Origin: Amycolatopsis deserti
Lineage (GTDB): Bacteria; Actinomycetota; Actinomycetes; Mycobacteriales; Pseudonocardiaceae
Direction of reading: 5' to 3'
Length of the DNA stretch: 64,000 bases
NCBI RefSeq assembly: GCF_014653945.1
Contig: NZ_BNAU01000002.1
Coordinates: forward strand, 1,111,914 to 1,175,913
Under the pieces are notes generated by a model. The model did not search any database. It saw nothing but the letters and a program-made list of their open reading frames with translations, and was not told where the DNA came from. The position numbers and the translations under genes were made by a program. Positions 13,055-59,840 of this stretch are shown here, piece after piece (position 1 is the first letter of the stretch; each line of letters begins with the position of its first letter).

Positions 13055-13076
13055 TCAATATATTTGTGTGCGCACG
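13055..13076. promoter_or_regulatory. AT-rich palindrome (site A) and GTGCGCAC dyad before the DsbA-like operon
   Basis: The perfect palindrome AATATATT (13057-13064) is followed at once by an 8-bp dyad, GTGCGCAC (13068-13075). Both lie 45-65 bases upstream of the ATG at 13120. The AT core matches eight other intergenic sites in this window and stands out against the GC-rich background. Confidence 0.5.
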
Positions 13077-13119
13077 CACGTAAATGCGGTACGCTGCGAC
13101 ACGACGGAAGGAGCACACG

Positions 13120-13842
13120 ATGATCCCCTCGGTCGACGTCCCGCCCGGCGATCCCCGATTGCCCGCCTCGCCGGACGTGATTGTGGTCTATTCGGACCTG
13201 AACTGCTCGTTCGCCCACGTCGCGGTGCACCGGCTGCACGAGACGCGGGAACGGCTCGGCCTGACCGGCCAGGTGCGCTTCGACCACCGGGCCTTCCCGC
13301 TCGAACTGTTCAACCGCGGGGTCAACGAGCGGCCCGGGGTCGACTCGGAGGTCGCCGTGCTCGGCGCGCTGGAGCCGGACGCCGGCTGGCAGCTGTGGCA
13401 GGAGAAGGACTGGCGGTACCCGGTGACCATGCTGCCGGCGCTGGAAGCCGTGCAGGCCGCGAAGCAGCAGGGCCTGCACGTCTCGGAGCAGCTCGATCGC
13501 GCGCTGCGGAAGGCGTTCTGGGCGCAGAGCCGGTGCATCTCACTGCGCGACGTGATCCTGGACGTGGCGGCCGAGACCGGTGTGGTCGACGTGCCGGACC
13601 TGGCCGGACGGCTCGACCGGGGCGAGGCGCGCGCCGCCGTCATCGAGCAGTTCGAGTCGGCGCGCGACGACCGGGTCGTGTGCAGCCCCCACCTGTTCCT
13701 GGCCGACGGCACCAACGCGGCCAATCCCGGCGTCTCGGCGCGCTGGGTGAACGGTGGCTTCGGCGTCGGGTTCCCGGTGATCGACTCGGACGAGCCGGAC
13801 ATCTACCGGGTACTGCTGGAGAAGGCGGCGAGCCTGGCGTGA
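13120..13842 (+). CDS. DsbA-family oxidoreductase (FrnE-like fold), paralogue 1
   Basis: A 240-residue thioredoxin/DSBA-fold protein. The active-site region is YSDLNCSFAHVAVHRLHE, so the usual CxxC is reduced to C-S-F-A with one Cys. C-terminal SPHLFLADGTNAANPG is the cis-Pro/substrate region of the FrnE/HCCA-isomerase branch. I chose ATG 13120, with AAGGAG nine bases upstream, over the longer ORF start. The stop overlaps the next start (GTGA). The paralogue at 14312-15013 suggests duplication. The substrate is unknown. Confidence 0.82.
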   Translation: MIPSVDVPPGDPRLPASPDVIVVYSDLNCSFAHVAVHRLHETRERLGLTGQVRFDHRAFPLELFNRGVNERPGVDSEVAVLGALEPDAGWQLWQEKDWRYPVTMLPALEAVQAAKQQGLHVSEQLDRALRKAFWAQSRCISLRDVILDVAAETGVVDVPDLAGRLDRGEARAAVIEQFESARDDRVVCSPHLFLADGTNAANPGVSARWVNGGFGVGFPVIDSDEPDIYRVLLEKAASLA

Positions 13843-14315
13843 TCACCACTGCTGACGGCCTCCGGATGGTGGCGGAACTCGCCCGTCCGGAGCGCTGGCT
13901 CGCCGTGCTCGTGACCGCCCGGGCCGACGGCCGGCCCGGTGTTTCCGTGGTGAACGCGGGAATCCTGCCGCACCCGGTGACCGGTGAGACCGTGGTCGCG
14001 TTCGTTTCCCGCGGCCGTACCGCGAAGCTCGCCAACCTGCGCGAACGTCCACATGCGACGCTGGTGTTCCGGTCCGGCTGGGAGTGGGTGTCGGTGTCCG
14101 GCCCGGTGGAGCTGGCCGGCCCCGACGACGTTCTGCCCGGCCTGCCGGACCCACGCCTCCTGCTCCGCGACATCTACACCGCCGCCGGCGGGGTGCACCC
14201 GGACCTGGACGAATACGACCGCGCGATGGCCGAGGACCGCCGCACCGCGGTGCTCCTGCGGCCGGCGCGCTTCACCACCAACCCACCTGGAACCGAACAC
14301 GAGGAAGCCGAATGA
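13839..14315 (+). CDS. Pyridoxamine 5'-phosphate oxidase-like (split-barrel flavin/F420) protein
   Basis: A 158-residue split-barrel protein: ERWLAVLVTARADGRPGVSVVNAG, then FVSRGRTAKLANLRERPHATLVFRSG and a C-terminal RTAVLLRPARFTT. This fits PPOX-class FMN or F420-binding proteins that reduce small molecules. It starts with GTG 13839 in a GTGA overlap with the first DsbA-like gene and ends in an ATGA overlap with the second, so the three are one operon. The reaction cannot be inferred. Confidence 0.82.
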   Translation: MITTADGLRMVAELARPERWLAVLVTARADGRPGVSVVNAGILPHPVTGETVVAFVSRGRTAKLANLRERPHATLVFRSGWEWVSVSGPVELAGPDDVLPGLPDPRLLLRDIYTAAGGVHPDLDEYDRAMAEDRRTAVLLRPARFTTNPPGTEHEEAE

Positions 14316-15013
14316 CCGACGCACCGTCGACCGTCCACCGTCCCGCGGCCGCCGCGGGGACCATCCAGGTCTGGTCGGACCTGCTCTGCCCGTTCGCGCA
14401 CGTGGCCCTGCACCGCCTCCGGGTGGCCCGGGAGCGGCTGGGGCTGCAGGACCGGGTCCGGATCGACCACCACGCGTTCCCGCTGGAACTGTTCAACGGT
14501 CCGCACCCGAGGCCGGGTACCGACAGCGAGGCCGTGGGTCTCGGCGCGATCGAACCGGCGGCCGGGTTCCGCCTGTGGACCGCGGCGGACTGGCTGTACC
14601 CGAACACCGTGCTGCTCGCCAACGAGGCGGTGGCCGCGGCCAAGGCGCAGGGCCTGGGGCCGGCCGAGGACCTGGACCGCGCGCTGCGCCGGGCGTTCTG
14701 GGTGGACAACCGCACCATCGGCCATCGCACCGTCATCCTGGAGGTCGCCGCCGAGACCGGCACGGTCGACGTCGGCGCGCTGACCGAGGCGCTCGACTCC
14801 GGCCGGCACCGGGCGGACGTGATGACCGACTACGCCATCGCGCGGACCGACGAGGTGACCGGCAGCCCGCACCTGTTCACGCCGGACGGCACGGGTGTGC
14901 ACAACCCGGGCATCACCGTGCACTGGGAAGGCCCGTGGGCGTCCGGCTTCCCCGTCGTGGACGAGCACGACTCGGACTGGACGGAAACGCTGCTGAAGAA
15001 GGCCATGGGGTGA
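14312..15013 (+). CDS. DsbA-family oxidoreductase (FrnE-like fold), paralogue 2
   Basis: A 233-residue paralogue of the 13120-13842 product. The active-site region is WSDLLCPFAHVALHRLRV, again with a single Cys (C-P-F-A). Both share HAFPLELFN and the SPHLF...G...NPGI region. ATG 14312 overlaps the stop of the PPOX-like gene. The 172 bases after its stop (15014-15185) hold no gene I can recognise and no clear hairpin. Confidence 0.82.
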   Translation: MTDAPSTVHRPAAAAGTIQVWSDLLCPFAHVALHRLRVARERLGLQDRVRIDHHAFPLELFNGPHPRPGTDSEAVGLGAIEPAAGFRLWTAADWLYPNTVLLANEAVAAAKAQGLGPAEDLDRALRRAFWVDNRTIGHRTVILEVAAETGTVDVGALTEALDSGRHRADVMTDYAIARTDEVTGSPHLFTPDGTGVHNPGITVHWEGPWASGFPVVDEHDSDWTETLLKKAMG

Positions 15014-15185
15014 CCACTTCACTCCCGCTTCGGAGAGTGGCTCGCGACCAGGAGCGGGTCGAATCGCCCGGGCACGAAGCGATGGCGGCTCGCCTGCTGA
15101 ACCTCCTGATGGACCGACTCCGGCCGTGCGCCTGCGGTCAACCCCAGGTGGCTGCTCGATCGCGGACCGGGAGCCAAGTGGGGAG

Positions 15186-16028: not shown

Positions 16029-16096
16029 GGAATTCCTCCTTCTCCTCGGCGATTCCCCCATCATGCGGCCGCCGCCGGTCCGCCTCCACGGTTCGA

Positions 16097-16279
16097 ACCG
16101 ACAACGCCGCGGCCCGCCGTTGTCGGTCGCGGCCACCTCGCCGCGGCCCGGGCCCTCCGCGACGGGCAGTTTTGGTTCTGATCGACAAAGGCCGCGGGCA
16201 ACTTGGTCGGCACGAGCCATGTCGTGCGGCTCGGATCCGCTCCTAGTGTCTTGCCTCACACGAAGACGTGACTGTGAGG
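16097..16279. promoter_or_regulatory. Divergent control region with three inverted repeats
   Basis: Between the SDR (minus) and ligase (plus) genes there are three dyads. The first has 10-bp arms around CCGACAACG/CGTTGTCGG with an 11-base spacer (16097-16127). The second is GCACGA-N6-TCGTGC (16210-16227). The third is CCTCACA-N12-TGTGAGG (16254-16279), ending eight bases before ATG 16287. They look like operators. The PucR regulator encoded at 21061-22374 is one candidate to bind here. No obvious -35/-10 pair could be assigned. Confidence 0.45.
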
Positions 16280-16286
16280 TGTTTCG

Positions 16287-17744: not shown

Positions 17745-17769
17745 GAATTCGCTCAAAGGAGAGAGAAAC

Positions 17770-19596
17770 GTGGGACTCACCAAACCGGACTTCCCGCCGG
17801 TCGATGTCGAGACTTTTCTCGGCCAACCGTTGCGGGAGCGCATCAAGGCGCTGTCACTGCACTGGGTCGAGTACGGCTTCGGCTCCCCCAAGCTGTTCCA
17901 CCTGATCTACGCCGTGAAGGTGCTCGTGCTGCACGTGGTCGCCGGCGCGGCGGCGGCGACCTGGTCGTCCGGTCTCGGTCCGTTCTGGGACGTCGCGACC
18001 TGGTGGAACGAGCCCATCGTGTACCAGAAGCTGATCCTGTGGACGGTGCTGCTGGAGACCGTCGGCGTGGCCGGCTCGTGGGGGCCGCTCGCGGGCAAGT
18101 TCAAGCCGATGACCGGTGGCGTGCTGTTCTGGACCCGCCCCGGCACGATCCGCGTCCGCCCCTGGCGCCGAGTGCCGTTCACCTCCGGCGATCGCCGCAC
18201 CGTGTTCGACGTGCTGCTCTACCTCACGGTGCTCGGGGCGCTGCTGGCCGCCATCCTCACCCCCGGGCGGCCCAGCGCGACGCTGTCGGCCGCTCTGCCC
18301 GGCAACACGTCCGGCCTGGTGAACCCGGTGCCGGTCGCCGTCGCGATCGCCGCGCTGGTGTTGCTCGGCCTGCGGGACAAGGTGATCTTCCTGGCGGCCC
18401 GGGGTGAGCAGTACCTGCCCGCGATGGTGTTCTTCGTCGCCCTGCCCTTCGTGGACATGATCGTCGCGCTGAAGCTGCTGATCGTGGTCGTGTGGATCGG
18501 CGCCGGGGTGTCGAAGTTCGGCAAGCACTTCTCCAACGTCGTCCCGCCGATGGTGAGCAACAGCCCGTGCATCCCGGCGAAGTGGTTCAAGCGCGCGCAC
18601 TACCGGGACTTCCCGCGCGACATCCGTCCGTCCAAAGTGGCCGGTTTGCTGGCCCACGTCGGCGGCACCTGCGTCGAGATCATCACGCCGCTGATCCTGC
18701 TGCTGTCGACCAACCGGGTCCTGACGCTCGCCGCGGTCGCGATGATGGTGCTGTTCCACCTGTTCATCACCTCGACGTTCCCGCTGGCGGTCCCGCTGGA
18801 GTGGAACATCCTGTTCGCCTTCGCCGCGATCTTCCTGTTCTGGGGCTTCCCCAACGAGGCCGGCTACGGGATCGGCGACATGTCCTCGCCCTGGCTGACC
18901 GCCGCGATCGCCGCCGGCCTGCTGTTCTTCCCGGTTCTGGGCAACCTGCGGCCCGACCTCGTCTCGTTCCTGCCGTCGATGCGGCAGTACGCGGGCAACT
19001 GGGCGTCGGCGCTGTGGGCGTTCGCTCCGGGCGCCGAGGAGAAGCTCGACGCCGTGCGCCGTCCGACGCGGAACCAGATCGACCAGCTCAAGGGCATGGG
19101 TTACGCCCCCGCCATCGCCGAGATCACGATGCAGCAGACCATCGCGTGGCGCTCGATGCACAGCCAGGGACGCGGCCTGTTCTCCCTGCTGTACAAGCAC
19201 CTGCCCGACATCGACCGGTGGACGATCCGGGAGGCCGAATTCGCGTGCAACTCGCTGCTCGGCTTCAACTTCGGCGACGGTCACATGCACAACGAGGACA
19301 TGCTGGCCGCGTTGCAACGGCGGTGCGGGTTCGAACCCGGCGAGTTCCTCGTGGTGTGGGTGGAATCCCAGGCCATCCACAGCCGGGTCCAGCACTACAA
19401 GGTCATCGACGTCGCCGTCGGCGTGATCGAGCGCGGCACGTGGAAGGTCGCCGACGCCGTCGCCGAGCAGCCCTGGCTGCCGAACGGGCCCATCCCGCTG
19501 CAGGTGGAGTGGTCACGGGCCGCGGACGGCGACCAGACGGCGCAGGCCACCCCGCAGCGCCGCACCCCGCAGCACCGCACTGGGACGCCGGCATGA
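17770..19596 (+). CDS. DUF3556 transmembrane protein
   Basis: A 608-residue multi-spanning membrane protein. It begins MGLTKPDFPPVDVETFLGQP and contains ALSLHWVEYGFGSPK, GSWGPLAGKFKPMTGG and LFWTRPGTIRVRPWR, which match the actinobacterial DUF3556 family as I know it. A long hydrophilic C-terminal part (after about residue 410) has conserved Cys/His stretches (EFACNSLLGFNFGDGHMHNED). Function unknown. It starts with GTG 17770 with AAAGGA upstream. Placement between an acyl-CoA ligase and an FAD oxidoreductase hints at a role with lipid or terpenoid substrates. Confidence 0.8.
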   Translation: MGLTKPDFPPVDVETFLGQPLRERIKALSLHWVEYGFGSPKLFHLIYAVKVLVLHVVAGAAAATWSSGLGPFWDVATWWNEPIVYQKLILWTVLLETVGVAGSWGPLAGKFKPMTGGVLFWTRPGTIRVRPWRRVPFTSGDRRTVFDVLLYLTVLGALLAAILTPGRPSATLSAALPGNTSGLVNPVPVAVAIAALVLLGLRDKVIFLAARGEQYLPAMVFFVALPFVDMIVALKLLIVVVWIGAGVSKFGKHFSNVVPPMVSNSPCIPAKWFKRAHYRDFPRDIRPSKVAGLLAHVGGTCVEIITPLILLLSTNRVLTLAAVAMMVLFHLFITSTFPLAVPLEWNILFAFAAIFLFWGFPNEAGYGIGDMSSPWLTAAIAAGLLFFPVLGNLRPDLVSFLPSMRQYAGNWASALWAFAPGAEEKLDAVRRPTRNQIDQLKGMGYAPAIAEITMQQTIAWRSMHSQGRGLFSLLYKHLPDIDRWTIREAEFACNSLLGFNFGDGHMHNEDMLAALQRRCGFEPGEFLVVWVESQAIHSRVQHYKVIDVAVGVIERGTWKVADAVAEQPWLPNGPIPLQVEWSRAADGDQTAQATPQRRTPQHRTGTPA

Positions 19597-21026: not shown

Positions 21027-21060
21027 TGGGGTCTCCCACCACCTGGGAGGAAGGTATGCG

Positions 21061-22374: not shown

Positions 22375-22385
22375 CGACCGCCCGG

Positions 22386-23081
22386 TCAGTCGCCGCCGAG
22401 GAAGACCACCGCGTCGTCGAGCTGGGCGCGGTCGGTGCGGAACCCGTTGACCGGGTGCTCGGTGTCGGCGTAGCCGAAGGAGACCGCGCAGACCACCAGC
22501 CGTTCGGCCGGGATCCGCAGGCACCGGTGGACGTGGTCGGCGTGCATCGCGATCGCGGCCTGCGGGATCGTGGCGACGCCGAGCGCGGTGGCGGCGTTGA
22601 GGAGGTTCGCCACGTAGCCGCCGCAATCGATCGCGCCGTAGACGCCCTGCTCGCGGTCGGTGGTGACGACCGCGACGTGCGGGGCGCCGAAGAACTCGAA
22701 GTTCCTCAGGCGCTGCGCCTCCCGCGCGTCGCGGTCCTCCCGCCGGATCCCGAGGCTCCGGTAGAGCGCGTACCCCGCGCCGCGCCGGCGCTCCTGGTAC
22801 ACCCCGTGGTATCCGGCGGGCATCGGCAGGTCCGGCGCGGGCTCGTGGGTCTTCGCGTGCTCGGTCAGACCGCGCGCGAATCGCCGGGTCGCCTCGCCCG
22901 AGGTGACGTACACCTGCCACGGCTGGGTGTTGCACCACGACGCGGTCCGCTGGGCGGTCCCGAACATCTCGCGCATCACCGCGTCCGGCACCGGATCCGG
23001 CAGGAAGGCACGGCAACTCCAGCGCTGCCCGAGCAGCCGGTCGAACCCGGTGGTGGTCAGGGAACTCCTCACCAGCAACAC
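22386..23081 (-). CDS. Nitroreductase-family protein
   Basis: A 231-residue FMN protein. RWSCRAFLPDPVPDAVMREMF and ASWCNTQPWQVYVTSG contain the FMN-binding Arg-Ser and Asn-x-Gln-Pro-Trp motifs of nitroreductases, and GGYVANLLNAATALGVATIP lines the dimer/FMN site. It reduces nitro or quinone groups with NAD(P)H. There is no ribosome site. GTG 23081 lies five bases after a TATAAT (minus strand, 23092-23087), so the mRNA may be leaderless; GTG 23072 is the alternative start. It is convergent with the PucR gene. Confidence 0.82.
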   Translation of the reverse strand: MLLVRSSLTTTGFDRLLGQRWSCRAFLPDPVPDAVMREMFGTAQRTASWCNTQPWQVYVTSGEATRRFARGLTEHAKTHEPAPDLPMPAGYHGVYQERRRGAGYALYRSLGIRREDRDAREAQRLRNFEFFGAPHVAVVTTDREQGVYGAIDCGGYVANLLNAATALGVATIPQAAIAMHADHVHRCLRIPAERLVVCAVSFGYADTEHPVNGFRTDRAQLDDAVVFLGGD

Positions 23082-23093
23082 AATATATTATAC
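23082..23093 (-). promoter_or_regulatory. AT-rich element (site B) abutting the nitroreductase start
   Basis: The palindrome AATATATT (23082-23089) extends into TATAC. On the minus strand it contains a perfect TATAAT five bases before GTG 23081, the spacing expected of a leaderless -10. It belongs to the AT-rich family repeated in this window. Its plus-strand flank CTTGCCA also occurs beside the element at 48371-48382. Confidence 0.5.
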
Positions 23094-23121
23094 TTGCCAC
23101 TTCGTCCCGTGACCGCCGCCA

Positions 23122-23522: not shown

Positions 23523-24033
23523 ATCTCCGGCGTGTCCGACGAGGTCCTGCACGCCATCGCCAGGGCGCTGCAGCTCGACGACATCGAGACGGCCCACCTG
23601 TTCGACCTGGTGTGCGCCGCCACCCGCCGCGCCGGGGCGCGCACGGTGAAGCCGCGCGCCGCGCGGCAACGGGTCCCCGACGGCGTGCAGGCGCTGATGG
23701 ACTCGATGGCCGGCGCCCCGGCGATCGTCCAGAACGGCCACCTCGACCTCGTCGGCGCCAACGCGCTGGGGCGGGCGCAGCGCGGAGTTCCGGACGCGGT
23801 GGGCCGCCCACGACGTGCGGGCCCACCGGCGCGGCACGAAGCAGTTCCACCACCCGGTGGTGGGCGACCTCACCCTGCGCTTCGAAGCGCTCGAGATCAC
23901 CAGCGCGGCCAACCTGACGCTGATCGGCTACACCGCGGAGCCCGGGTCCCCCTCGGCCGAGGCGCTGCAGCTCCTCGCGAGCTGGATCGCGACCGCGCCG
24001 TCACCGCCAGGCGAGCGCGCCCGCGCCGACTGA
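23523..24033 (+). pseudogene. Decayed XRE-family regulator (MmyB-type)
   Basis: The first frame encodes the end of the HTH region and linker (ISGVSDEVLHAIARALQL, ETAHLFDLV, then VPDGVQALMDSMAGAPAIVQNG and LVGANALGRA). The sequence then jumps, with a frame change near 23770, to RSAEFRTRWAAHDVRAHRRG, continuing to a normal C-terminus (GDLTLRFEALEITS). The N-terminal helix-turn-helix and about 60 central residues are absent. In intact genomes such MmyB regulators often sit divergently beside an alpha/beta hydrolase, and here both partners are broken. Confidence 0.75.
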
Positions 24034-24047
24034 CCGACAATGACCGG

Positions 24048-26746: not shown

Positions 26747-27007
26747 TCACCCCAGCCGCGAGGGCGCCCAGTCGCGCGTCGGCGACCGCCAGGCCGGCCA
26801 GTGGTCCTCCGGCTCGGGCCGGGTCACCGACAGGTGGGTGAAGCAGTCCTGGCACTTCACCACCATGCGCGGTCCGAGGTAGTTGGCCACGGGGTAGCGG
26901 GCGACGTCGCCGCTCCCGCACGACGGGCAGGTGGCGTCCACGGGCTGCCGTGCCACGGAGACCCGCTCGGTCTCCGGGCGCGGGAAGAGGAGTCGGTCGA
27001 CGGACAT
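26747..27007 (-). CDS. Small zinc-ribbon protein in the HyuAB operon
   Basis: An 86-residue protein. Two Cys pairs, CPSCG (about residues 27-31) and CQDC (about 52-55), form a four-Cys zinc ribbon. It lies between HyuB and the CoA ligase, 12 and 4 bases from them. Acetone and acetophenone carboxylases have, besides HyuA- and HyuB-like subunits, a small zinc-binding gamma subunit. This protein is shorter but could play that part. An alternative is a rubredoxin- or DUF35-like accessory protein. Confidence 0.7.
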   Translation of the reverse strand: MSVDRLLFPRPETERVSVARQPVDATCPSCGSGDVARYPVANYLGPRMVVKCQDCFTHLSVTRPEPEDHWPAWRSPTRDWAPSRLG

Positions 27008-27019
27008 GTGCGGTGCCTC

Positions 27020-28933
27020 CTAGAGGATCCAGTTCAGGGGGGTGGCGACGGGCACGCTCCAGGTGCCCGCCGCGCGCAGCGCCGCCAGTTCGGCCCGGCG
27101 CCGGGCGGTCGCGTCGCGGTCGATCCGCTCGCCGTCGAGGACGGCACCGAAGGCGAGAACGGCGAACTCCGGGCTGTAGAGACCGTCGCGGAGGTCGCGT
27201 TCGAGCCGGCCGAGGTCGCGGGCGAGGGGATCGCCCCAGCCACCGCCGCCGCCGATGAGGAAGCGGATCGCGTCGCCGGCCTTGAGCACGAGCCCGGAGA
27301 ACTTGCCGGTGGAGTACCGCGCGCCGCGGCAGAACCCGCCGTGGTTGGGATCGGGCCTGCCGTCGGCGTCGAACATGCCGAACAGCGGCTCCGCGGGGCG
27401 GAGGTCGAGCGGGTCGGCGTGCCGCGCGAGGTCGAAGTCCTTGATGTACCACCCGAACGCGGGTGCGCCGGCACCCGCGCCGGCCGCGCCCGGCGCGCCG
27501 ACCCGGACCCGGTCGCAGGTGACCGTGACGATCGTGTCGGCCTGGGCGGTCAGGGTGTACACCGAGCCCAGACCGCCCCGGTACCGCCCGGCGCCCGCGG
27601 TGTCGGCGACCATCTCGTGCTGGGCGACGATCAGCGGGCTCTCGATCTCCACGTGCTCCTGCACCGAGGTGCGGCAGTTGCCGATCGGCGTGACGCAGAA
27701 GGAGATCCCGTCCTCCTTCCACGTGCCGCCCCAGCCACCGCCGGTGAGGGCGAACGCGCCCCACGGCGTGCCGCCGTGACCGGGCCGGGTGTCGATGCCG
27801 CCCAGGCTGATGACCAGCGCGGTGCCGGTGTCGCAGGCGATCGAGCGGTCGCCGATGGCCTCGCTGAGCGCGCCGGCGACGGCGTTGATGCACCGGGCCC
27901 CGATGTCGGCGTGGTTGGAGCAGCTGGACGGCGGGAGCACGCAGACCACGCTGCCCTGGGGCAGCAGCGTTTCGATCGGCCGCAGCGTGCCGCTGTTGAC
28001 CGGCGTGCCCGGATCGGCCATGAGCTTGACGGCCTCGATGCAGCGGACCGCCTCGCACCACGCGGTCCCGCAGTTGCCCAGCGGCTGCCGTCCCGAGCCG
28101 GAGAAGTCGATCTCCATGCTGTCCCCGCGGACCTTCACGGTGACCCGCACCGGGATGGGCTCGTCGGTCACGCCGTCCTCGTCGAGGAAGTCCTCGACGG
28201 TGTAGTCACCGTCCGGGATGCCGGCGATACCGCGGCGCATGCTCGCCTCGGTCGCCTCGATCGCGTACCGGCCGGCGGCCTTGACCCGGTCCAGGCCGCC
28301 GCGGGCGACGAGCGCCTGGAGCTGCCGCTCCCCCACCACCAGGCAGCCGTGCAGGGCCCGCAGGTCGCCCAGGACCAGCTGGGGCACCCGGTTGTTCTCC
28401 AGGATGTAGTTGAACAACGGCCGCACCGGGACGTCGTTGGCGTAGAGCAGCGACGGCGGGAGCTTGATCTGCTCCTCGAACGCGGTCTGCGTGCCGTTGG
28501 AGAACCCGCCGGGGATGGGCCCGCCGAGGTCGACCAGGTGGGAGGTCGAGTGCAGGATGAACTCGACGCGGCCGTCGACGAAGACGGGGCGGAGCAGGTT
28601 CACGTCGGACTGGTGGATCGTCCCGCGCCACGGGTCGTTGACGAAGATGACGTCGCCGGGCTGCAGTGTGTCGAGGTCGAACTCGTCCATCACGAAGTTC
28701 ACGATGTGCGGCGAGGTGAAGGCGTGCTGCATGCAGCCCTCCCACTGCGCCGCCGTCTCCCACGCGTCACCGCTGCGGATGTGGATCGCGGTGGTGCAGT
28801 CCAGGATGTCCCGGCACACGGGCGAGAAGGCGCTGCGCATCAGGGCCTCGTTCATCTCGCGGGCGACCTCGATCAGGCCGTACCGCAGGATGTCCAGTTC
28901 GAACTCGGCCGCCGGTTCCGTGGTGGTGGTCAT
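27020..28933 (-). CDS. Hydantoinase B/oxoprolinase-family subunit (HyuB; acetone-carboxylase alpha-like)
   Basis: A 637-residue protein. GDVIFVNDPWRGTIHQSDV and HSTSHLVDLGG carry the metal-binding His107, Asp110, His132 and Asp135 (numbered from ATG 28933). Conserved Gly-rich ends (GGGGGWGDPL) match HyuB. ATG 28933 has GAGGAG upstream, overlapping the HyuA stop. Members of this family hydrolyse N-methylhydantoin or 5-oxoproline, or carboxylate ketones with ATP. The zinc-ribbon and ligase neighbours favour the carboxylase reading. Confidence 0.87.
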   Translation of the reverse strand: MTTTTEPAAEFELDILRYGLIEVAREMNEALMRSAFSPVCRDILDCTTAIHIRSGDAWETAAQWEGCMQHAFTSPHIVNFVMDEFDLDTLQPGDVIFVNDPWRGTIHQSDVNLLRPVFVDGRVEFILHSTSHLVDLGGPIPGGFSNGTQTAFEEQIKLPPSLLYANDVPVRPLFNYILENNRVPQLVLGDLRALHGCLVVGERQLQALVARGGLDRVKAAGRYAIEATEASMRRGIAGIPDGDYTVEDFLDEDGVTDEPIPVRVTVKVRGDSMEIDFSGSGRQPLGNCGTAWCEAVRCIEAVKLMADPGTPVNSGTLRPIETLLPQGSVVCVLPPSSCSNHADIGARCINAVAGALSEAIGDRSIACDTGTALVISLGGIDTRPGHGGTPWGAFALTGGGWGGTWKEDGISFCVTPIGNCRTSVQEHVEIESPLIVAQHEMVADTAGAGRYRGGLGSVYTLTAQADTIVTVTCDRVRVGAPGAAGAGAGAPAFGWYIKDFDLARHADPLDLRPAEPLFGMFDADGRPDPNHGGFCRGARYSTGKFSGLVLKAGDAIRFLIGGGGGWGDPLARDLGRLERDLRDGLYSPEFAVLAFGAVLDGERIDRDATARRRAELAALRAAGTWSVPVATPLNWIL

Positions 28934-28947
28934 GCTCGTCGCGCTCC

Positions 28948-31014
28948 TCAGCCGTGGTTCTCGATGATCAGCAGGCGGTCGTCGTCGATGCGGGCGCGGC
29001 GGCCGGGCAGGACGACGGTCGTGGCGAACTTCTCGGACACGATCGCCGGGCCCGCCACGACCTCTCCGGGCTGGAGGCGTTCGCGGACGTGGACGGGCAC
29101 GCGCACGGTGTCCCCCGCGCCGGGGATCCGCAGATCCCGGTGTCCCAGCAGGGATTCGCCGTCCTCGGCGGCCGACGGCGGGACCTTGTGCGGCCGCGGG
29201 ATCACCGCGGTCACCTCCAGGGTCGACACGACGACCGGGATCTCGGTGGCGGAGAACCCGTAGGACTCCTGGTAGAAGGCGTGGAAGTCGGCGACGATCT
29301 CCGGCACGCCCGCGGCGGTCACCCGGTCCCGCCGCAGCGGGAGCCGGTTGTCCCACGTCTGCCCGCGGTACATGCCGAAGAGGGCGCGGTCGAAGGTCAG
29401 GCCCTCGATGTCCACCCCCTGCGCGGTCAGCTCCTCGGTGAGGGCGCGTTCCATCGCGGCGAACCCGTCCTCCATCACCGCGGCGTTGTCCGGGGAGAGC
29501 GGGATCATCAGCGACTGCGCCCGCGTCGTGCGCAGGTCGCTCTGCAGCAGCCCGAGTGCCGAGAACTGCCCCGGCGTGGTGGGGACGACGACGGTGTCCA
29601 CGCCGAGGATCCGCGCCACGCGGTCGGCGAGCATCGGCCCGGCCGACCCGAACGGCAGCAGGGCGAAGTCGCGCACGTCCAGTCCACGGTAGACGGAGAT
29701 GGTCCGGATCTTGGCGGCGATGTCCTCGCACGCGACCCGGTAGGCGGCCTCGGCCAGGTCCTCGGCGGAGAGGTTCCACCGTTCGCCGGTGCGCGCCAGC
29801 GCCGCGCGGGCGGCTTCGACGTCGAGCGTGATCCGGCCGCCGGCGAACAGGTCGGGTTGCAGGACCCCCAGCACCAGGCAGGCGTCGGTGAGCGTGGCCT
29901 CGGTGCCGCCGCGCCCGTAGCAGGCGGGGCCGGGGTTCGAGCCGGCCGAGGCGGGGCCGACCGCGATCCGGCCGAGAGCGTTGGGACCGATGATGCTGCC
30001 CGCGCCCGAGCCGACGCTTTCTACGTCGACCAGCGGCATGGTGAGCGTCAGGCCGGTCTCCAGCGTCCACAGGTCGGTCAGCGGGGTCCGCGCGTCCACG
30101 ATGGCGGCCACGTCCGTGCTGGTCCCGCCGACGTCCATGGTCAGCAGGTTCCCGCGGCCGGCGTCCCGCGCCAGCCGGATGCTGCCGGTCACGCCGCCCA
30201 CCGGCCCGGACACCAGCTGGAAGACCGGTGCCCGGCCGGCGTCGGCGACCGTGGCGACACCGCCGTTGGTCATCATGATCCACAACGTCCCGCCGAACGC
30301 GCGCTCCGCCAGCGCCACCGTGAGGCGCCGCAGGTACCCGACGACGGCGGGCCCGACGTAGGCGTCCAGAGCGACCGTCGTGGTCCGCTCGTGCTCCTTG
30401 GTCACCGGGTACAGGTCCGAGGTCTGGACGTAGGCGTGCGGCATCTCCTCGGCGAGGATCTCGGCGGCGCGGCGCTCGTGCCCGCGGTCGCGGTAGGAGT
30501 TCAGGAAGCACACGCCGACCGCCTCGACACCCCGGGCGGCGAGCGCGCGGGCCGCCTCCCGCACCGCGTCCTCGTCCAATGCGAGCAGTTCCGTGCCGTC
30601 GTAGGCGATCCGCTCCGGGATGCCGATCCGGTTGTGCCGCTCGACGACGGGGCGTTCCTGGTGCGGCCGCAGCCAGGTGGGGTCGTAGAACCGGTCCCCG
30701 AACTCGCGGTGCATCCGCCCGATGTCGAGCAGATCGCGGTGTCCCCGGGTGGCGAGCAGGCCGGTCCGCGCTCCCGCACGGCTGAGCAGGGCGTTGATGC
30801 CGACGGTGTGCCCGTGCACGATCTCCGCCACACCCGGGACGTCCACGTCGATCGCGGCGAGCGCCCGCAGCACGCCCTTCTCCTGCTCCGGCGTCGAAAG
30901 CACCTTGCCGTCGCGGATCTCGCCGGTGTTCCGGTTGAGCCCGACGATGTCGGTGAAGGTTCCCCCGACGTCGATCCCGACCAGCCAGTCGGCTGAGCTT
31001 CGTTGCTCGGTCAC
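28948..31014 (-). CDS. Hydantoinase A/oxoprolinase-family subunit (HyuA; acetone-carboxylase beta-like)
   Basis: A 688-residue ATP-binding (actin/ASKHA-like) subunit. WLVGIDVGGTFTDIVGLN is the first phosphate loop, HGHTVGINALLSRAGARTGLL follows, and LLTMDVGGTSTDVAAI is the second loop. Within HyuA/HyuB enzymes it couples ATP cleavage to activation of the substrate. GTG 31014 is preceded by GGAGG. It begins a four-gene operon, HyuA-HyuB-zinc ribbon-CoA ligase, 87 bases downstream of the LuxR regulator gene, which may control it. Confidence 0.88.
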   Translation of the reverse strand: MTEQRSSADWLVGIDVGGTFTDIVGLNRNTGEIRDGKVLSTPEQEKGVLRALAAIDVDVPGVAEIVHGHTVGINALLSRAGARTGLLATRGHRDLLDIGRMHREFGDRFYDPTWLRPHQERPVVERHNRIGIPERIAYDGTELLALDEDAVREAARALAARGVEAVGVCFLNSYRDRGHERRAAEILAEEMPHAYVQTSDLYPVTKEHERTTTVALDAYVGPAVVGYLRRLTVALAERAFGGTLWIMMTNGGVATVADAGRAPVFQLVSGPVGGVTGSIRLARDAGRGNLLTMDVGGTSTDVAAIVDARTPLTDLWTLETGLTLTMPLVDVESVGSGAGSIIGPNALGRIAVGPASAGSNPGPACYGRGGTEATLTDACLVLGVLQPDLFAGGRITLDVEAARAALARTGERWNLSAEDLAEAAYRVACEDIAAKIRTISVYRGLDVRDFALLPFGSAGPMLADRVARILGVDTVVVPTTPGQFSALGLLQSDLRTTRAQSLMIPLSPDNAAVMEDGFAAMERALTEELTAQGVDIEGLTFDRALFGMYRGQTWDNRLPLRRDRVTAAGVPEIVADFHAFYQESYGFSATEIPVVVSTLEVTAVIPRPHKVPPSAAEDGESLLGHRDLRIPGAGDTVRVPVHVRERLQPGEVVAGPAIVSEKFATTVVLPGRRARIDDDRLLIIENHG

Positions 31015-32221: not shown

Positions 32222-32236
32222 ACCATATAATATATG
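32222..32236 (-). promoter_or_regulatory. AT-rich palindrome (site C) upstream of the LuxR gene
   Basis: CATATA-A-TATATG (32224-32236) is a perfect dyad with six-base arms and a one-base centre, 37-49 bases upstream of ATG 32187. With its flank, GACCATATAATATAT (32221-32235) is identical to 59004-59018 upstream of the CoA-transferase gene, and related to the other AT-rich sites. Confidence 0.55.
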
Positions 32237-32301
32237 TCATGGGTCACGGCCGACAGACCCGGGAAACGCGGGCCGCGGGCACGCCGGTTGTTCCCCGGCG
32301 A

Positions 32302-42405: not shown

Positions 42406-42494
42406 TGTGGACCTGCCAATCGTGTCGCGTGGAGTTTCCGGATGAGGGGACTCGCGGCGCGGTCGCCGCTGCCGGATTGCCGGGAAAGGTATAT

Positions 42495-42509
42495 GGAAAA
42501 TATTTTATG
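42495..42509. promoter_or_regulatory. AT-rich palindrome (site D) upstream of the ABC importer operon
   Basis: The perfect palindrome AAAATATTTT (42497-42506) sits in the flank GGAAAATATTTTATGGTC. It lies about 92 bases upstream of the importer operon start (42405, minus) and past the terminator of the operon ending at 42633. The core is identical to the site at 59829-59838. Confidence 0.55.
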
Positions 42510-42584
42510 GTCAAGGCCGTCGGAGTGGCCCCTGCGCGGTACACCCGAACGTGGGACCTCGGCCGCGCGCTGTTCCATTGTGGA

Positions 42585-47772: not shown

Positions 47773-48252
47773 TCACGACGCGGCGGTGGCGGCCTGATCC
47801 GCGGCCGACCGCTTGAGCATCAGGCCGACGCGGGTGGCGTCGCAGACGATCTCGTCACGCTGGTTGATGCCCAGGTGCCGGAAGACGACGATGCCCGAGT
47901 CACCGCGACTCTTGGACTCGCGCTTGCTCACGATCTCGGTGCGCGCGCGGATGGTGTCGCCGTGGAACACCGGGTTCGGGAACTTGACCTCTTGGAAGCC
48001 GAGGTTGCCCAGCGTCGTGCCCTGCGTGGTGTCCGGAACCGTGACGCCGGAGACCAGGCCCAGGATGAACAGGCTGTTGACCAGCCGCTGGCCGAAGATG
48101 GTGTTCTTGCTGTACTCCGCGTCGAGGTGCAGCGGGGCGAGGTTCAGCGTCAGCGTGCTGAACAGCACGTTGTCCGCCTCGGTGACCGTCCGCCGGGTCG
48201 CGTGCTCGATCACCGCGCCGGGCTCGAACTCCTCGAAATACAGGCCGGGCAT
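47773..48252 (-). CDS. MaoC/mesaconyl-CoA hydratase-like hotdog protein
   Basis: A 159-residue hotdog hydratase. LTLNLAPLHLDAEYSKNTIFGQRLVNSLF keeps the conserved His (PLHLD) but has Asn where many MaoC enzymes have the catalytic Asp. This resembles the mesaconyl/itaconyl-CoA hydratase branch. I chose ATG 48252 with GGAGG six bases upstream. First gene of the 48252-42633 operon; the palindrome at 48274-48285 lies 22 bases upstream. Confidence 0.85.
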   Translation of the reverse strand: MPGLYFEEFEPGAVIEHATRRTVTEADNVLFSTLTLNLAPLHLDAEYSKNTIFGQRLVNSLFILGLVSGVTVPDTTQGTTLGNLGFQEVKFPNPVFHGDTIRARTEIVSKRESKSRGDSGIVVFRHLGINQRDEIVCDATRVGLMLKRSAADQAATAAS

Positions 48253-48271
48253 GCTAGCCTCCACTCCTTAC

Positions 48272-48287
48272 GGAAAATATATTTTAT
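48272..48287 (-). promoter_or_regulatory. AT-rich palindrome (site E), 12-bp perfect, upstream of the MaoC operon
   Basis: AAAATATATTTT (48274-48285) is the longest perfect palindrome of the family. On the minus strand it follows a possible promoter, TTGACC-N17-TAAACA, whose -10 lies just ahead of the palindrome, so a bound repressor would cover the transcription start. It lies 22 bases upstream of ATG 48252. Confidence 0.6.
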
Positions 48288-48353
48288 GTTTACATGTCGG
48301 CGCAGCCTGGGTCAACCCCGGCGGCCCGGGAGCCCGGCAACCGCCCGATCACC

Positions 48354-48382
48354 TTGCTCTAACAAAGTATTAAATATAGTAT
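48354..48382 (+). promoter_or_regulatory. Probable promoter overlapping AT-rich element (site F) for the BVMO operon
   Basis: TTGCTC (48354-48359), a 17-base spacer and TAGTAT (48377-48382) form a good -35/-10 pair, predicting a start near 48389, about 70 bases before ATG 48460. The spacer and -10 hold the AT-rich GTATTAAATATAGTAT, a weaker relative of the window's palindrome family, and are followed by the CTTGCCA also found at site B. Confidence 0.55.
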
Positions 48383-48459
48383 CTTGCCATTCCGGCACGG
48401 CTCCCCCGCGGACGGCCCACCACGCCCGGAGAACCCGTTCACACACAGGAGGTGCCCGG

Positions 48460-50013: not shown

Positions 50014-50024
50014 AGGAGCACCGC

Positions 50025-53472: not shown

Positions 53473-53473
53473 C

Positions 53474-54004: not shown

Positions 54005-54014
54005 CCCGACGGGC

Positions 54015-54061
54015 ACGGGAAAGGGGCGGAACGGCCCACGGCCGTTCCGCCCCTTTCCCGT
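54015..54061. terminator. 22-bp bidirectional hairpin terminator between convergent operons
   Basis: Two perfect 22-base arms with a three-base CAC loop fill almost the whole 60-base space between the SnoaL-like gene stop (54004) and the convergent ALDH stop (54065). It should end transcription from both directions. There is no U-run. Confidence 0.85.
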
Positions 54062-54064
54062 AGC

Positions 54065-55534: not shown

Positions 55535-55565
55535 GTCGTTCTCCTTTGAACGGTGGGGAGTGGGA

Positions 55566-56456
55566 TCAGCCGTGCCGCGCCACGGCTTCGGCGAGCTCGA
55601 TGACGCCTTCGGCCGTCTTCACGTGGGCGAGGTCGATGTGCTGGCCTTCGAAGTCCACCGCCGCGCTGCCTTCGGCCTCGGCCTTGCGGAACGCGTCGAT
55701 CATGCGCCGGTAGAACTCCACCTTCTCCGGCGACGGCGTGAAGACCTCGTTGGCCACCGCGACGTGGGAGGGGTGGATGCAGACCATCCCGCGGTAGCCG
55801 AGCCCGCGGTTGTCCTCGCAGAAGCGGCGGAACCCGTCGAGGTCCCGGATGTCCTGCCACACGCCGGCGAGCGGGTGGTGCAGGCCGGCCGCGCGGGCGG
55901 CGAGGACGATGCGGCTGCGCAGGTACAGGGTCTCCAGCCCGGCTGGGGTGAACTCGAACCCGAGCTCACGCCCGACGTCGGCGTTGGGACCGGTCGCGCC
56001 GAGCAGGCTGGCCACCCGCGGGCTGGCGGTGGCGATCTCCTCGCAGTGGGCCATCGACACCGCGGTCTCGTAGCTCACGATCAGCCCGACCGAGCCCGGC
56101 GCGAGCCCCTCCCGCTCCTCCAGGTGCGACACCACGGCGTCGATCCGCACGATCTCCTGCGCGTCGAACACCTTCGGCAGGAACAGCCCCGCCAGCCCCG
56201 GTCGCACCACGGCCTCCAGGTCGGCCCCGAGCAGGCCGCTGACGGAGCTGTTGGGCCGGACCCACAGGTCGGCCCGGGCGGCGTCGGCCAGCCGGTCCAG
56301 CGTCTCCGCGACGGTCTTGCGGGCGTCCGCCTTGTCCCCGGCGGGCACCGAGTCCTCGAGGTCGAGGATCACCGCGTCGGTACCCGAGGCGAGCGCCTTG
56401 TCGGCCCAAGTGGGCTTGTGGCCGGGGACGAACAGCAGGGAACGGTAGGGCTTCAT
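55566..56456 (-). CDS. HpcH/HpaI-type CoA-ester lyase (CitE/citramalyl-CoA lyase-like)
   Basis: A 296-residue TIM-barrel lyase. It begins [15 protein letters not shown] and has [19 protein letters not shown] with the metal-binding Asp/Glu, then [19 protein letters not shown]. The family cleaves malyl-, citramalyl- or other 3-hydroxyacyl-CoA esters into two pieces. ATG 56456 overlaps the stop of the crotonase gene. With the mesaconyl-CoA-hydratase-like MaoC at 47773 it could process a branched dicarboxylic CoA intermediate. Confidence 0.87.
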
Positions 56457-57274
56457 CGGATGTCCTCCTTGACGGGACGGGAGAAGTCGGGCTTGCGGCG
56501 CTCGCGGTGGGACGCGAGGCCTTCGCGCACCTCGGGCCCGGCGAAGCCGTAGAACTCCAGCGCGAGCGAGGAGTCGAAGATGGCCCCGGCGATCTGCCGG
56601 TACCAGGCGTTGAGGGACTGCTTGGTCCAGCGGATCGCGGTGGGCGCCCCGGTGGCCAGCTCGCGGGCGATCTCCCTGGCGGTGGGCAGGAGGTCGGACT
56701 CCTCGTCGACGCAGAGCGAGACCAGGCCGATGCGCTCGGCTTCCTGGCCGGTGAGGGGCCGGCAGGTCATGAGGTAGTACTTGGCCTTGGCCATGCCGCA
56801 CAGCAGCGGCCAGCACACGGCGGCGTGGTCACCGGCGGCGACGCCGAGGCGGGTGTGGCCGTCGACGATCTTCGCGCTCCGGGCGACCACGGACACGTCG
56901 GCCAGCACCCCGGCGACCAGCCCGGCTCCCACGGCGGGACCGTGGATGGCCGAGACCGTCGGCTTCGAGCAGTCGATGACGTTGTAGACCAGGTCCCGCG
57001 CCTCGCGCATGGTGCGCGTGCGGGTGTCGTAGTCGGTGGACAGCTTCTCGACCAGGTCGAACGAGCCGCCGGCGGAGAACGCCTTGCCCTCGCCGCGGAG
57101 CAGGACGGCGGCCACGTCGGGGTCGCGGTCGAACTCGCGCCAGATGTCGGCGAGGTCCGCGTGGGCGGCTTCGCTCACCGCGTTGAGATTGGGGGCGTCG
57201 AGGACCAGCTCGATGACCCCGTGTTCGTCGGGGCCCTCCACCCGCAGGTGGGGGAAACGTGCGTAGCGGCTCAT
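56453..57274 (-). CDS. Crotonase-family protein lacking both hydratase glutamates
   Basis: A 273-residue crotonase fold. The oxyanion loop is [16 protein letters not shown]. At the first hydratase Glu position there is no Glu ([14 protein letters not shown]). At the second the sequence is [15 protein letters not shown], with a His and an Asp nine residues apart, the same spacing as His145/Asp154 of 6-oxocamphor hydrolase. It is therefore unlikely to be a simple hydratase; C-C bond hydrolysis or isomerisation is possible. ATG 57274 overlaps the CoA-transferase stop. Confidence 0.82.
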
Positions 57275-58992
57275 GTGCTTCCTTTCCTGTCGCGGCCGAG
57301 GAAGAGCCCCTCCCGGTCGTAGTCGCGCAGCTCGGCGACGTCCTCGGCGGTCACCGGCCGCAGCTCGCGGACGTCCTCGGCCACCTTCAGGTCCCAGCCG
57401 CAGCGAGTGCGCACGGCGGCGATCCGCTCGGCGAGCGGCTCCGGCCCGGGGGCGATGTGGGTGAGGACCAGGTCGCCGTCGCGCATGGTCAGCGTGCCGG
57501 CGTCGGTGACCACGGCGCGGACGCGCGCGCCGGGGCTGGTGACGTAGTCGCACTGCTCGATGAACCGGCGGGGACTCAGCGTGCCGACGACGAGGGTTTC
57601 GTCGGCGTTGGTGACGACGTCGTTCGCGCCGCCGGACCCGACGAGGTGGGGGCCGCCGGCGATCTTGGTGGTGTTGATGTTGCCGTGGCGGTCGATCTCG
57701 GCCGCGCCGACGCACGCGATCGAGCGGGTGCGCGGCCCGTTGACCAGGGTGCCCAGCACCTGCTCGGTGTCCAGCAGCATCGAGGCGGTCGGGAAGTTGG
57801 CGAAGCTGAAGATGAACGGGTCGCCGGGGGTGGGGGTGTAGTCCCACAGCCCGAGTTCGGCGGCCAGCGCGACCTCGTGACCGGCGGCTTTCGCCCGCGC
57901 GACGCCGACCCACGCCGCGAGGTTGGCCAGCCCGGCCCCGGCCAGCACGGCGGCCGCGCCGGTGGCCGCGATGCGCTCGCCCAGCAGGTCGGCGAGCCAG
58001 ACCGCCGCGCGCTCGGCGGGGGTCGGCGGTCCGCCGTGGCCGTCGCCGCGCGGCACCAGCGACGGCCCGCCGGCCGCTCGCACCAGCTCCGCCAGCCGGT
58101 CGCCGCCGAGTTTCGCCAGGTATGCCTCGTGATCGGCGGGTTCGAGGATCCACTCGCGGATCCAGTCGTCGAACCGCTCGGAGCGGGTGGCGGTGCGCAC
58201 ATCGATCCAGAAGGGGACGTCCTCGGCGTAGCCCCGCACCGGCAGCGCGGCCCCCGCCGGACCGGCGAACACGCCGCCCGGGTGGGCACCGAACGGCGCC
58301 TCCACGACGGCGAGCACCCGGTGGGCGGGGATCCGCACCAGCGGCGACCAGGCACGCAGATCGTCGACCACCTTCTCCACGGTGGCGAGCACCCCGCGCC
58401 GGGCGGCGAACGCACCGATCGAGCCTTCGAACATCGGCGGGGCGATCGCCAGGTTGCCCTGCCGGTCGGCCACCGCGGCGTGCACCACCGCGATGTCGGG
58501 GGCCAGGGGCGCGACCAGGCCGACCCGGCCGAACCGGGTGTCCACTTCGTCGTAGGCGTCGTTGGCGGCCATCGACGAGCCGCGCACCGAACCGGTCACC
58601 ACCGCGGGCACCCCGGTGGCGGCGGCCCGCAGCCGCTGGATGAAGCTCAGGAACGACCAGTTCTCCACCTGCACCGCGCCAGAGCCGTAGGCCTGCTGGA
58701 AGACCGGGTTGGGCGTGAACACGGGGAACGAGTCTCCCGAGTAGACGGTGACGACCCGCTCCAGGCAGCCGGCGCGGAACAGCACGGCCCCGAGCGAGGA
58801 CAGGCTCGCCATGATCAGGGTGAAGGCCGACGGCCTGCCCCAGTGCTGCCGCGCGATCTCCCGGACCAGGGCGCTCCACCGGGAGTGGCCCATCATCACG
58901 TGGATCGCGTCGCCCGGCCGGACGTGGCGGGCCACCGCCTCGTCCAGCCGGCAGAAGTCGGTCGCCAAGCCGGCACCCCCGTTCCTCGCCAC
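57271..58992 (-). CDS. Class I CoA-transferase, alpha and beta halves fused
   Basis: A 573-residue protein. The N-terminal half (about 1-300) has alpha-subunit features ([35 protein letters not shown]). The C-terminal half (about 320-573) has beta-subunit features ([19 protein letters not shown] with an E-x-G as in catalytic Glu motifs, [31 protein letters not shown]). In glutaconate or IpdAB-type enzymes these are two genes. GTG 58992 has only a weak ribosome site; the AT-rich site G lies 20 bases upstream. It probably moves CoA between acids. Confidence 0.82.
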
Positions 58993-59003
58993 GTTCGCCG
59001 CCT

Positions 59004-59023
59004 GACCATATAATATATTTTAC
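59004..59023. promoter_or_regulatory. AT-rich palindrome (site G) upstream of the CoA-transferase operon
   Basis: GACCATATAATATAT (59004-59018) repeats site C exactly. AATATATT (59012-59019) is the palindromic core, and ATAATATATTTTAC is shared with site H (59791-59804). It lies about 20 bases upstream of GTG 58992 and just past the end of the GntR gene. Confidence 0.6.
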
Positions 59024-59055
59024 GTTTCGACGAGTGCGCTGGGCCACACTCCGGC

Positions 59056-59751
59056 TCACCCGGCCGCGTCGTCCCAGAACCCGCGCTCCTCGAGCAGCGC
59101 CACCGCGCGGTTCCCGCCGCGCAGGAAGTGGTCCTCGGTGAGCTTGCGGGCCACGTCCCCGGCCCCCGCCCGCAGCGCGTCGATGATCTCCCGGTGGTCG
59201 GCGTGCGCCGCGGCCGACCACTGGGCGTGCGATTCGTAGAACCCGTGCGGGATCGCGCTGCCCAGCACCTTCAGCTCCGAAACGAGCCGGCGCGAGCGCG
59301 AGGCCCGGTTGATCACCCGGTGGAACTCGAAGTTGAGCAAGTCCAGCCGCTCGCTCGACACCTCCGTCTCCATCCGCGCGGCGATCTCGTCGAGCGCCTC
59401 CAGGCTGGCCGGCGACATCCGCGCGGCCGCCCGCTCGGCCGCGAGGCCGGAGATCACGCCGAGCATCCAGTACTGGTCGCGGACGTCCTCCCGGGACAGC
59501 CTGGCGACGAACGCCCCGCGGCGTGGCACGACCTCGATGATCCCCTCGACCTCGAGCGCGATCAGCGCCTCCCGGACCGGGAGCTTGCTGATCCCGAGCC
59601 GCTCCGCCACCGCGTCCTGGTCGATCCGGACCCCCGGGCGCAGCACCCCGGCGAAGACCTGCCGGCGGATCTCCTGGGCGGCGGCTTCCTTGAGACTGGC
59701 CGGGAGAGCCACCCGCCGCGACCTCGGGAAGACCGAGTTGTCCAGTACCAT
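59056..59751 (-). CDS. GntR-family transcriptional regulator (FCD domain)
   Basis: A 231-residue regulator. The winged helix (about 18-80) is [22 protein letters not shown] then [23 protein letters not shown]. The FCD ligand-binding domain (about 95-215) includes [10 protein letters not shown] and [11 protein letters not shown], where His residues usually bind a metal/effector. I chose ATG 59751 ([10 protein letters not shown]) over the ORF start at 59787. Both flanks of the gene carry the window's AT-rich palindrome, making it the leading candidate to bind those sites. FCD regulators commonly sense organic acids. Confidence 0.88.
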
Positions 59752-59789
59752 GTCCGCCCTGCCTTCCGTCGACCACCGCGGATACACAT

Positions 59790-59804
59790 CATAATATATT
59801 TTAC
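59790..59804. promoter_or_regulatory. AT-rich palindrome (site H) upstream of the GntR gene
   Basis: ATAATATATTTTAC (59791-59804) contains AATATATT (59793-59800), 40-50 bases upstream of the GntR start at 59751 and 36 bases from site I. The pair in one divergent intergenic region suggests autoregulation plus control of the acyl-CoA dehydrogenase operon. Confidence 0.6.
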
Positions 59805-59825
59805 TTCAGCAGCACCGAGCGACGT

Positions 59826-59840
59826 GATAAAATATTTTCC
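59826..59840 (+). promoter_or_regulatory. AT-rich palindrome (site I) directly before the acyl-CoA dehydrogenase ATG
   Basis: The perfect palindrome AAAATATTTT (59829-59838) ends two bases before ATG 59841, where a ribosome site would normally be. TAAAAT (59828-59833) is seven bases from the ATG, the spacing of a leaderless -10 promoter in actinobacteria. So it may be promoter and operator at once. Confidence 0.6.

Follow-up and report, generated by a model that had tools for sequence, protein, structure and literature searches.

Nine A/T-rich sites between the genes of the window

Here, we analyze nine short A/T-rich sites, A to I, in a stretch of 64,000 bp from Amycolatopsis deserti (assembly GCF_014653945.1, contig NZ_BNAU01000002.1, referred to as C2; C2:1111914-1175913). 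This whole stretch is referred to as the window. The original prediction described the sites as palindromes in intergenic gaps that might form a local regulon, and named a GntR/FCD gene, g091, as the best candidate for the gene of their binder. Our findings support the regulon but point to g113, a paralogue of g091 beyond the window, as the more probable regulator. The GC content of the window is 71.5%, and its runs of at least eight consecutive A/T bases (W8 runs) are nine in number and identical to sites A to I. Based on gene calls with our own script, all nine sites are intergenic, as had been claimed. They are listed in window coordinates and without strand. Scores are those of the 18-bp matrix described in the next section, and genes without a Pfam or NCBIfam search were named by eye from their N-termini.

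Site A, 13052..13069: AATATATT, upstream of g052 (DsbA in the original prediction and by eye, 13120-13842, plus strand); 10.2 bits, marginal.
Site B, 23077..23094: at the start of g060 (nitroreductase in the original prediction and by eye, 22386-23081, minus strand); 30.5 bits.
Site C, 32224..32241: upstream of g068 (GAF-LuxR regulator, 31102-32187, minus strand; Pfam GerE/GAF); 23.7 bits.
Site D, 42494..42511: upstream of g076 and ABC importer genes (by eye); 23.3 bits; kept in the relatives G003 and G012.
Site E, 48271..48288: 28 bp upstream of g081 (MaoC, 47773-48252, minus strand), which is divergent from g082; 25.9 bits.
Site F, 48368..48385: upstream of g082 (CoA ligase by eye) and the unit of g083 (FMO/BVMO-like by Pfam), plus strand; 24.1 bits.
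Site G, 59007..59024: upstream of g090 (CoA-transferase by Pfam, 57271-58992, minus strand); 30.3 bits.
Site H, 59788..59805: between g091 and g092, closer to g091; 29.2 bits.
Site I, 59824..59841: 36 bp from site H and directly ahead of the g092 (acyl-CoA dehydrogenase) start; 19.5 bits.

The core AATATATT is present at 13057, 23082, 48276, 59012, and 59793 and the core AAAATATTTT at 42497 and 59829; none of 100 shuffles matched the counts of these cores in the window. The flanks reported to be common were also found, i.e., GACCATATAATATAT at sites C and G, ATAATATATTTTAC at G and H, and GGAAAATAT at D and E and, reversed, at I. Sites B and I nearly adjoin a start codon, and their overlap with the 5' end of the gene depends on the choice of start; in the case of g092 behind site I, ATG 59841 and GTG 59859 are both candidates.

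Clustering and recurrence of the sites

Palindromic expectation-maximisation, in which symmetry is imposed, was run separately on 17 windows of this genome, 31 windows of the relatives G009 and G018, and 171 windows from named loci (171 of 196 remained after the removal of near-duplicates). The named loci, 76 in total and from many actinobacterial genera, come from a genome scan with nine g113-type proteins. The three site sets converged on one core, near ATAATATATTAT, and R-Y was found outside this core in the two larger sets. When just the inner eight columns were used for the alignment, the preferences of the two flanks were still alike, a likeness that random orientation could also yield. 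An 18-bp matrix with the consensus nacATAATATATTATgtn was trained without this genome on 202 windows of other organisms; because these windows had been picked for W8 runs, the matrix favors A/T-rich DNA by construction. In 160 kb around the window, it identified 18 sites with 18.0-30.5 bits, all of them intergenic and all in the block described below; the best scores of ten first-order resamplings were 6.2 to 12.9 bits. Eight of the nine sites in the window are among these 18. The exception is site A, the weakest of the nine and doubtful, with a score inside the range of the resamplings. The sites outside the window include one at C2:1189734, before the AraC gene g108. Among 19 sites measured, 18 are located 5-125 bp from the nearest start.

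The genome comprises 7.74 Mb in 24 contigs, and all eight occurrences of AATATATT are within 78 kb (C2:1124970-1202968). Similarly, 11 of the 13 places with at least 12 consecutive A/T bases (W12 places) are within C2:1154410-1206178; the remaining two, at C2:286955 and C2:586361, are outside the island. The block, C2:1124970-1206178, thus delimited, spans 81 kb and runs ~30 kb past the end of the window, where it adds 8 W8 runs or, by the matrix, 10 sites of at least 18 bits. The 160 kb around the window contain 18 W8 runs, none of which is in a called gene and 17 of which are inside the block; as a control, a single W8 run was found in 101 kb surrounding 30 further FCD genes of this genome. 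Finally, of the 29 WWATATWW places in the 7.74 Mb, 22 are inside the block and 7 outside it, i.e., the motif is not equally frequent elsewhere. The rarity by chance and the local clustering on which the original prediction relied are, based on these counts, even more pronounced than claimed. The site-bearing gaps precede genes for acyl-CoA dehydrogenase, MaoC hydratase, CoA-transferase, CoA ligase, MmgE/PrpD, FMO/BVMO-like, importer, and regulator proteins. Such a common site upstream of functionally linked units and nearly absent elsewhere in the genome makes a local regulon well supported at the level of sequence.

The original prediction also noted that AT-rich -10 elements might account for some sites. 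We consider it very unlikely that the set as a whole consists of -10 elements, be it those of strong promoters or those recognized by an alternative sigma factor. A TAnnnT hexamer does face the nearest gene in all 19 sites tested, and TTGACA-N18-TATATT before g100 (C2:1180703) and TTGACC-N17-TAAAAT before g111 (C2:1194491) resemble full sigma-70-like promoters, each with a site over its -10 element. However, in a -35 spacing test on 19 sites (matrix site C2:1192543 was left out), a match to five or six of the six TTGACA positions occurred at only 2 sites; the other 17 reached at best 2 to 4 of 6, about as much as expected at random positions, so that a constant -35 spacing was not found. Moreover, only 7 of the 29 WWATATWW places are outside the block, and the orientation of AATATATTTTA before g118 varies: relative to the gene, it is on the opposite strand in this genome and on the same strand in G009 and G018. 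A -10 element may coincide in part with a repressor site, and individual sites may still overlap one.

Across this genome and 40 relatives, AATATATTTTA was found in six of the 41, i.e., in five of the genus and as a single match in G024, where the surrounding 20 kb contained no matches of at least 50% to the 147 called genes of the window and its surroundings. Of 19 genomes of the genus, five (this one included) have both g113 (E at most 1e-60) and AATATATTTTA, and neither was found in the other 14. G003 has g055-g119 at 89-100% protein identity and, by eye, W8 runs at 15 of 17 places; in G012, g060-g063 and g069-g119 are present at 92-100%, close matches to g064-g068 are missing, and W8 runs were counted at 13 of 17 places (by eye). 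The counterpart of site B is ATAATATATTAT in G003, and no W8 run was seen at that place in G012. Neither genome has close matches to g120-g123. G009 and G018 contain diverged versions of the island (~50-80% identity for the closest common genes) with 16 and 15 site windows, respectively, and four g113-type genes each. Three of these genes are side by side (G009:C11:69.8-72.1 kb; G018:C19:87.3-89.5 kb), with the fourth 15-17 kb away, which represents a local duplication of the regulator.

Across three species, the proteins encoded by most of the island are 89-100% identical, and in the 120 kb fetched from G012, none of g000-g059 or g120-g146 was matched at 50% or more. This near-identity, together with the unmatched flanking genes in G012, hints at a recent horizontal spread of the island. 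A mobile island would also be compatible with the sites being relics of AT-rich foreign DNA or places for an Lsr2-type nucleoid protein. We regard this as the least probable of the explanations considered, because the window and the surrounding 160 kb both have 71.5% GC, and the A/T bases are confined to single intergenic runs of 8-17 bp that share a fixed core and R/Y flanks.

The recurrence extends beyond the genus. Of 397 genomes in the order, nine have a g113 match below 1e-75; the 10-mer ATAATATATT was found in 5 of these nine and in 15 of the 388 others (Fisher 2e-5; the 1e-75 line was drawn after the list was seen, and 7 candidates per genome were scored). In these five genomes, the 10-mer matches are on the contig of g113, within ~62 kb of it, and eleven genomes with weaker g113 matches (1e-50 to 1e-59) lack the 10-mer. 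Among the 76 named loci, 55 contain at least one run of at least nine A/T bases, where the expectation is at most 0.9 per locus except for L128 (2.2); of the eight loci with the greatest distance (identity of at most 52%; L140-L145, L147, and L148), two have such a run. Around the 76 loci, the density of W8 runs is highest within the 500 bp preceding the regulator gene (8.8 per 10 kb, compared with 0 to 3.5 in the other bins), and in 26 of the 76 loci, a W8 run is located within 400 bp of this gene.

The candidate regulators and the recognition helix

Two genes of the island encode GntR/FCD regulators.

g091, 59056..59751, minus strand: GntR/FCD regulator (Pfam), with an alternative start at GTG 59787.
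g113, C2:1195741-1196442 (L011:3828-4529, plus strand): GntR/FCD regulator, ~20 kb beyond the window and 24 kb from g091.

Both proteins score well above the Pfam cut-offs for the GntR winged helix-turn-helix (HTH) domain (PF00392, cut-off 27: g113, 55.4 bits; g091, 53 bits) and for the FCD domain (PF07729, cut-off 24.3: 62.9 and 61.8 bits). They are paralogues with 33% identity. That the local regulon is read by a protein of this family is well supported by the sequence comparisons. Which of the two paralogues does so is suggested by genomes that contain only one of them. Sites are present in G009 and G018, where g091 has no orthologue and its best match is, in each case, a g113 copy with 37-38% identity. 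Similarly, the stretches fetched from G445 (36 kb) and G167 (18 kb) contain g113 and no g091, with 4 and 5 sites, respectively, and in G498 (50 kb) both genes are present together with 7 sites. Some of G445, G167, and G498 may share a species with training loci, and for them, the matrix is not strictly independent. In all three, a site is present at the regulator's own promoter. Conversely, the g091 orthologue of G177 (62%) has as neighbors homologues of g092 (87%), g094 (84%), g097 (79%), and g116 (51%); no close g113-type gene was found in this genome (best 42%), and 33 kb contained no site of at least 13 bits. The g092 homologue is preceded by a site in G498 and G167 and by none in G177. 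The sites, in other words, track g113 rather than g091 in G177, G445, and G167.

The nomination of g091 as the best candidate binder was, accordingly, probably wrong. That g091 binds the sites, alone or jointly with g113 as a paralogue of overlapping specificity, appears unlikely to us, although it is the most serious of the alternatives. g091 is located between site G and sites H and I, it is of the same family as g113 and likewise lacks the Arg at the FadR Arg-45 position (it has Lys), and g091 homologues of at least 45% are present in 4 of the 76 g113-type loci and in G498. However, sites without g091 and g091 without sites argue against it, and with 7 candidates scored per genome, g091 was matched at E 1e-55 in 2 of 394 genomes of the class, this one included. 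The flanking of g091 by sites, which is correct, fits a target equally well and is not specific for a binder. We suggest that g091 is probably not the main binder and more likely a target or an auxiliary regulator.

It is improbable, still more so than for the -10 elements, that another regulator of the cluster reads the sites, i.e., the GAF-LuxR protein g068, the PucR protein g059, the AraC protein g108, or the MmyB-like protein g114. All four genes are in or beside the block, site C precedes g068 and another site precedes g108, and both G009 and G018 encode MmyB-like homologues (38-45%). Yet, the site-bearing contigs of G009 and G018 contain no match to g068, g059, or g108 among the matches listed, and homologues of at least 45% of g108, g114, and g068 are present in only 9, 6, and 4 of the 76 loci, respectively (these loci were chosen by g113). 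Moreover, the sites concentrate just upstream of g113-type genes.

Several observations weigh against g113 as the regulator that reads the sites. The candidate site 66 bp before g113 itself is weak (12.8 bits, compared with the resampling maximum of 12.9). Four of the nine genomes with g113 matches below 1e-75 lack the exact 10-mer ATAATATATT, and 21 of the 76 named loci lack a run of at least nine A/T bases; as these loci were chosen via g113-type proteins, the presence of g113 in them is by design. G177 is a single case, and the absence of g091 from G445 was seen within 36 kb only. Whole clusters, rather than single genes, come and go, and other cluster regulators are incompletely separated from g113. 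Among the predicted contacts described in the next paragraph, the significant link of Asn to A/T in the FadR subfamily is at position 39 (PMC4494728, in excerpt), and the Asn here is at position 38. Finally, of the "palindromes" of the original prediction, the A/T-rich sites stood, and exact palindromy was not above letter-shuffled runs: 11 of 94 8-mers in A/T runs of this genome are exact palindromes compared with a shuffle mean of 7.9, and 72 of 500 shuffles reached the count. The same was true for G009 and G018 (350 and 299 of 500 shuffles reached the count), while palindromy was slightly above shuffles in the named loci (57 8-mers, mean 47; 31 of 500). Because exact palindromy is not above composition, the strong evidence lies in location and recurrence rather than in perfect dyads. 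Taking all of these points together, we estimate a probability of roughly 80% that the sites are operators, with the consensus RYATAATATATTATRY, of a GntR/FCD regulator, most likely g113, as judged from sequence.

The recognition helix of the g113 subfamily has changed at a residue with a known role. In FadR and AraR, an Arg of this helix, at HTH position 38, contacts G (PMC4494728, in excerpt). At the corresponding FadR Arg-45 position, which is commonly but not obligatorily Arg in the FadR subfamily, the 76 subfamily members have Asn (49), Ile (9), Thr (8), Val (7), Ser (2), or Ala (1) and in no case Arg; g113 has Asn and g091 has Lys. By eye from the sequences, 29 of 30 other FCD proteins of this genome have Arg at this position and one has Val (of 36 FCD matches, 30 were examined, two are g113 and g091, and four were left out). 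Asn-A is among the frequent predicted contacts of the GntR family (PMC4494728, in excerpt). The loss of the G-reading Arg fits the loss of G from the operator, which is a correlation and not proof. HTH position 28 (FadR Arg-35), where a gapless count gives Glu and MAFFT places a gap, was not used for any claim.

Based on these findings, we infer that a g113 dimer binds each A/T-rich site in the promoter or 5' region of ~15-18 transcription units of what would be an 81-kb acyl-CoA catabolic island. g113 would belong to an actinobacterial subfamily without the guanine-reading Arg of the recognition helix, mostly with Asn instead. Most simply, it would act as a repressor that leaves the DNA when an intermediate of the pathway occupies the FCD domain; repression is the most likely sign of control because 18 of the 19 sites are 5-125 bp from the nearest start and two cover a good -10 element. 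g113 may also control its own gene in this genome. More generally, we speculate, with the odds about even, that a widespread actinobacterial FCD clade without the G-contacting Arg reads an A/T-only operator, partly by DNA shape at TA steps, and that this nearly background-free address in GC-rich genomes lets one regulator or a local duplicated set (four in G009 and G018) control at least 15 units of a movable catabolic island.

If so, an A/T-only operator in a 71% GC genome would be an almost unique address. The proposal gives an uncharacterized 81-kb catabolic island a specific operator, a candidate regulator, and ~18 target gaps, offers a putative site-regulator pair that may be transferable to many actinobacterial genera, and connects an altered residue at a known GntR contact with a changed type of operator. 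Such an operator could also serve as a clean tool for inducible expression in actinomycetes.

Island genes and comparison with known systems

Three further genes behind the sites bear on the function of the island.

g092, 59859..61013, plus strand: acyl-CoA dehydrogenase (Pfam) behind sites H and I; start ATG 59841 also possible.
g081, 47773..48252, minus strand: MaoC hydratase, RipB/Ich-like, with 130.8 of the 340 bits of the NCBIfam cut-off.
g088, 55566..56456, minus strand: HpcH/HpaI (CitE/Ccl-like) lyase in the g087-g090 run behind site G; RipC/Ccl, 113.5 of 375 bits.

g081, g088, and g119 (a family III CoA-transferase) resemble Ich, Ccl, and mesaconate CoA-transferase, respectively, but are far below the family cut-offs, and membership of g081 and g088 in the itaconate pathway was rejected on this basis. 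As a guess, the substrate of the island is a branched or unsaturated dicarboxylic acid. The island contains two hydantoinase/acetone-carboxylase-like sets, g065-g067 (window 26747-31014) and g105-g107 (C2:1185405-1189497), each with a small cysteine-containing open reading frame; g067 was assigned by Pfam and the others by eye. A 72-aa open reading frame at 23815-24033 in the window matches just the end of the MmyB-like ligand-binding domain (PF17765) and is probably an MmyB-like remnant, of which g114 is an intact relative in the island outside the window. At 17770-19596, the window encodes a long DUF3556 membrane protein (PF12077, 880 bits), flanked by a CoA ligase and a phytoene dehydrogenase-like oxidoreductase (both by eye).

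No paper on the motif or the subfamily was among the literature matches listed, and most subscription papers are outside the literature searched. In the excerpt of PMC12288468, a GntR-mentioning paper containing AATATATTAT, this sequence stands in a primer. Among solved structures, 16 distinct chain sequences match, mostly named GntR-family regulators (best E 2e-15); they were not used further. The best NCBIfam match of both g113 and g091 is PhnR_burk (TIGR03338), with 72.6 and 78.7 bits, respectively, compared with a cut-off of 271.5, and neither is a member.

The closest known systems are those of the FadR subfamily (LldR, GlcC, PdhR, and HypR), which share the GntR winged helix and the FCD domain with g113 and g091. 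According to the excerpt of PMC4494728, the common operator of this subfamily is also an A/T-rich palindrome but has conserved TKGT/ACMA boxes. These boxes are common, with known exceptions, and the sites here, with the consensus nacATAATATATTATgtn, have no conserved GT/AC pair, just as the Arg that contacts G is replaced in 76 of 76 members. An exception similar to the present sites is BioR of alphaproteobacteria, a FadR-subfamily protein with the GT-less AT-rich site TTATMKATAA (same excerpt). BioR differs in that it is linked to biotin genes in alphaproteobacteria (PMC4554459, in excerpt) and has another site core; the comparison with BioR covered site and role. Altogether, a local GntR/FCD regulon is a system of a known kind, and what makes this one unusual is its operator and its recognition helix.

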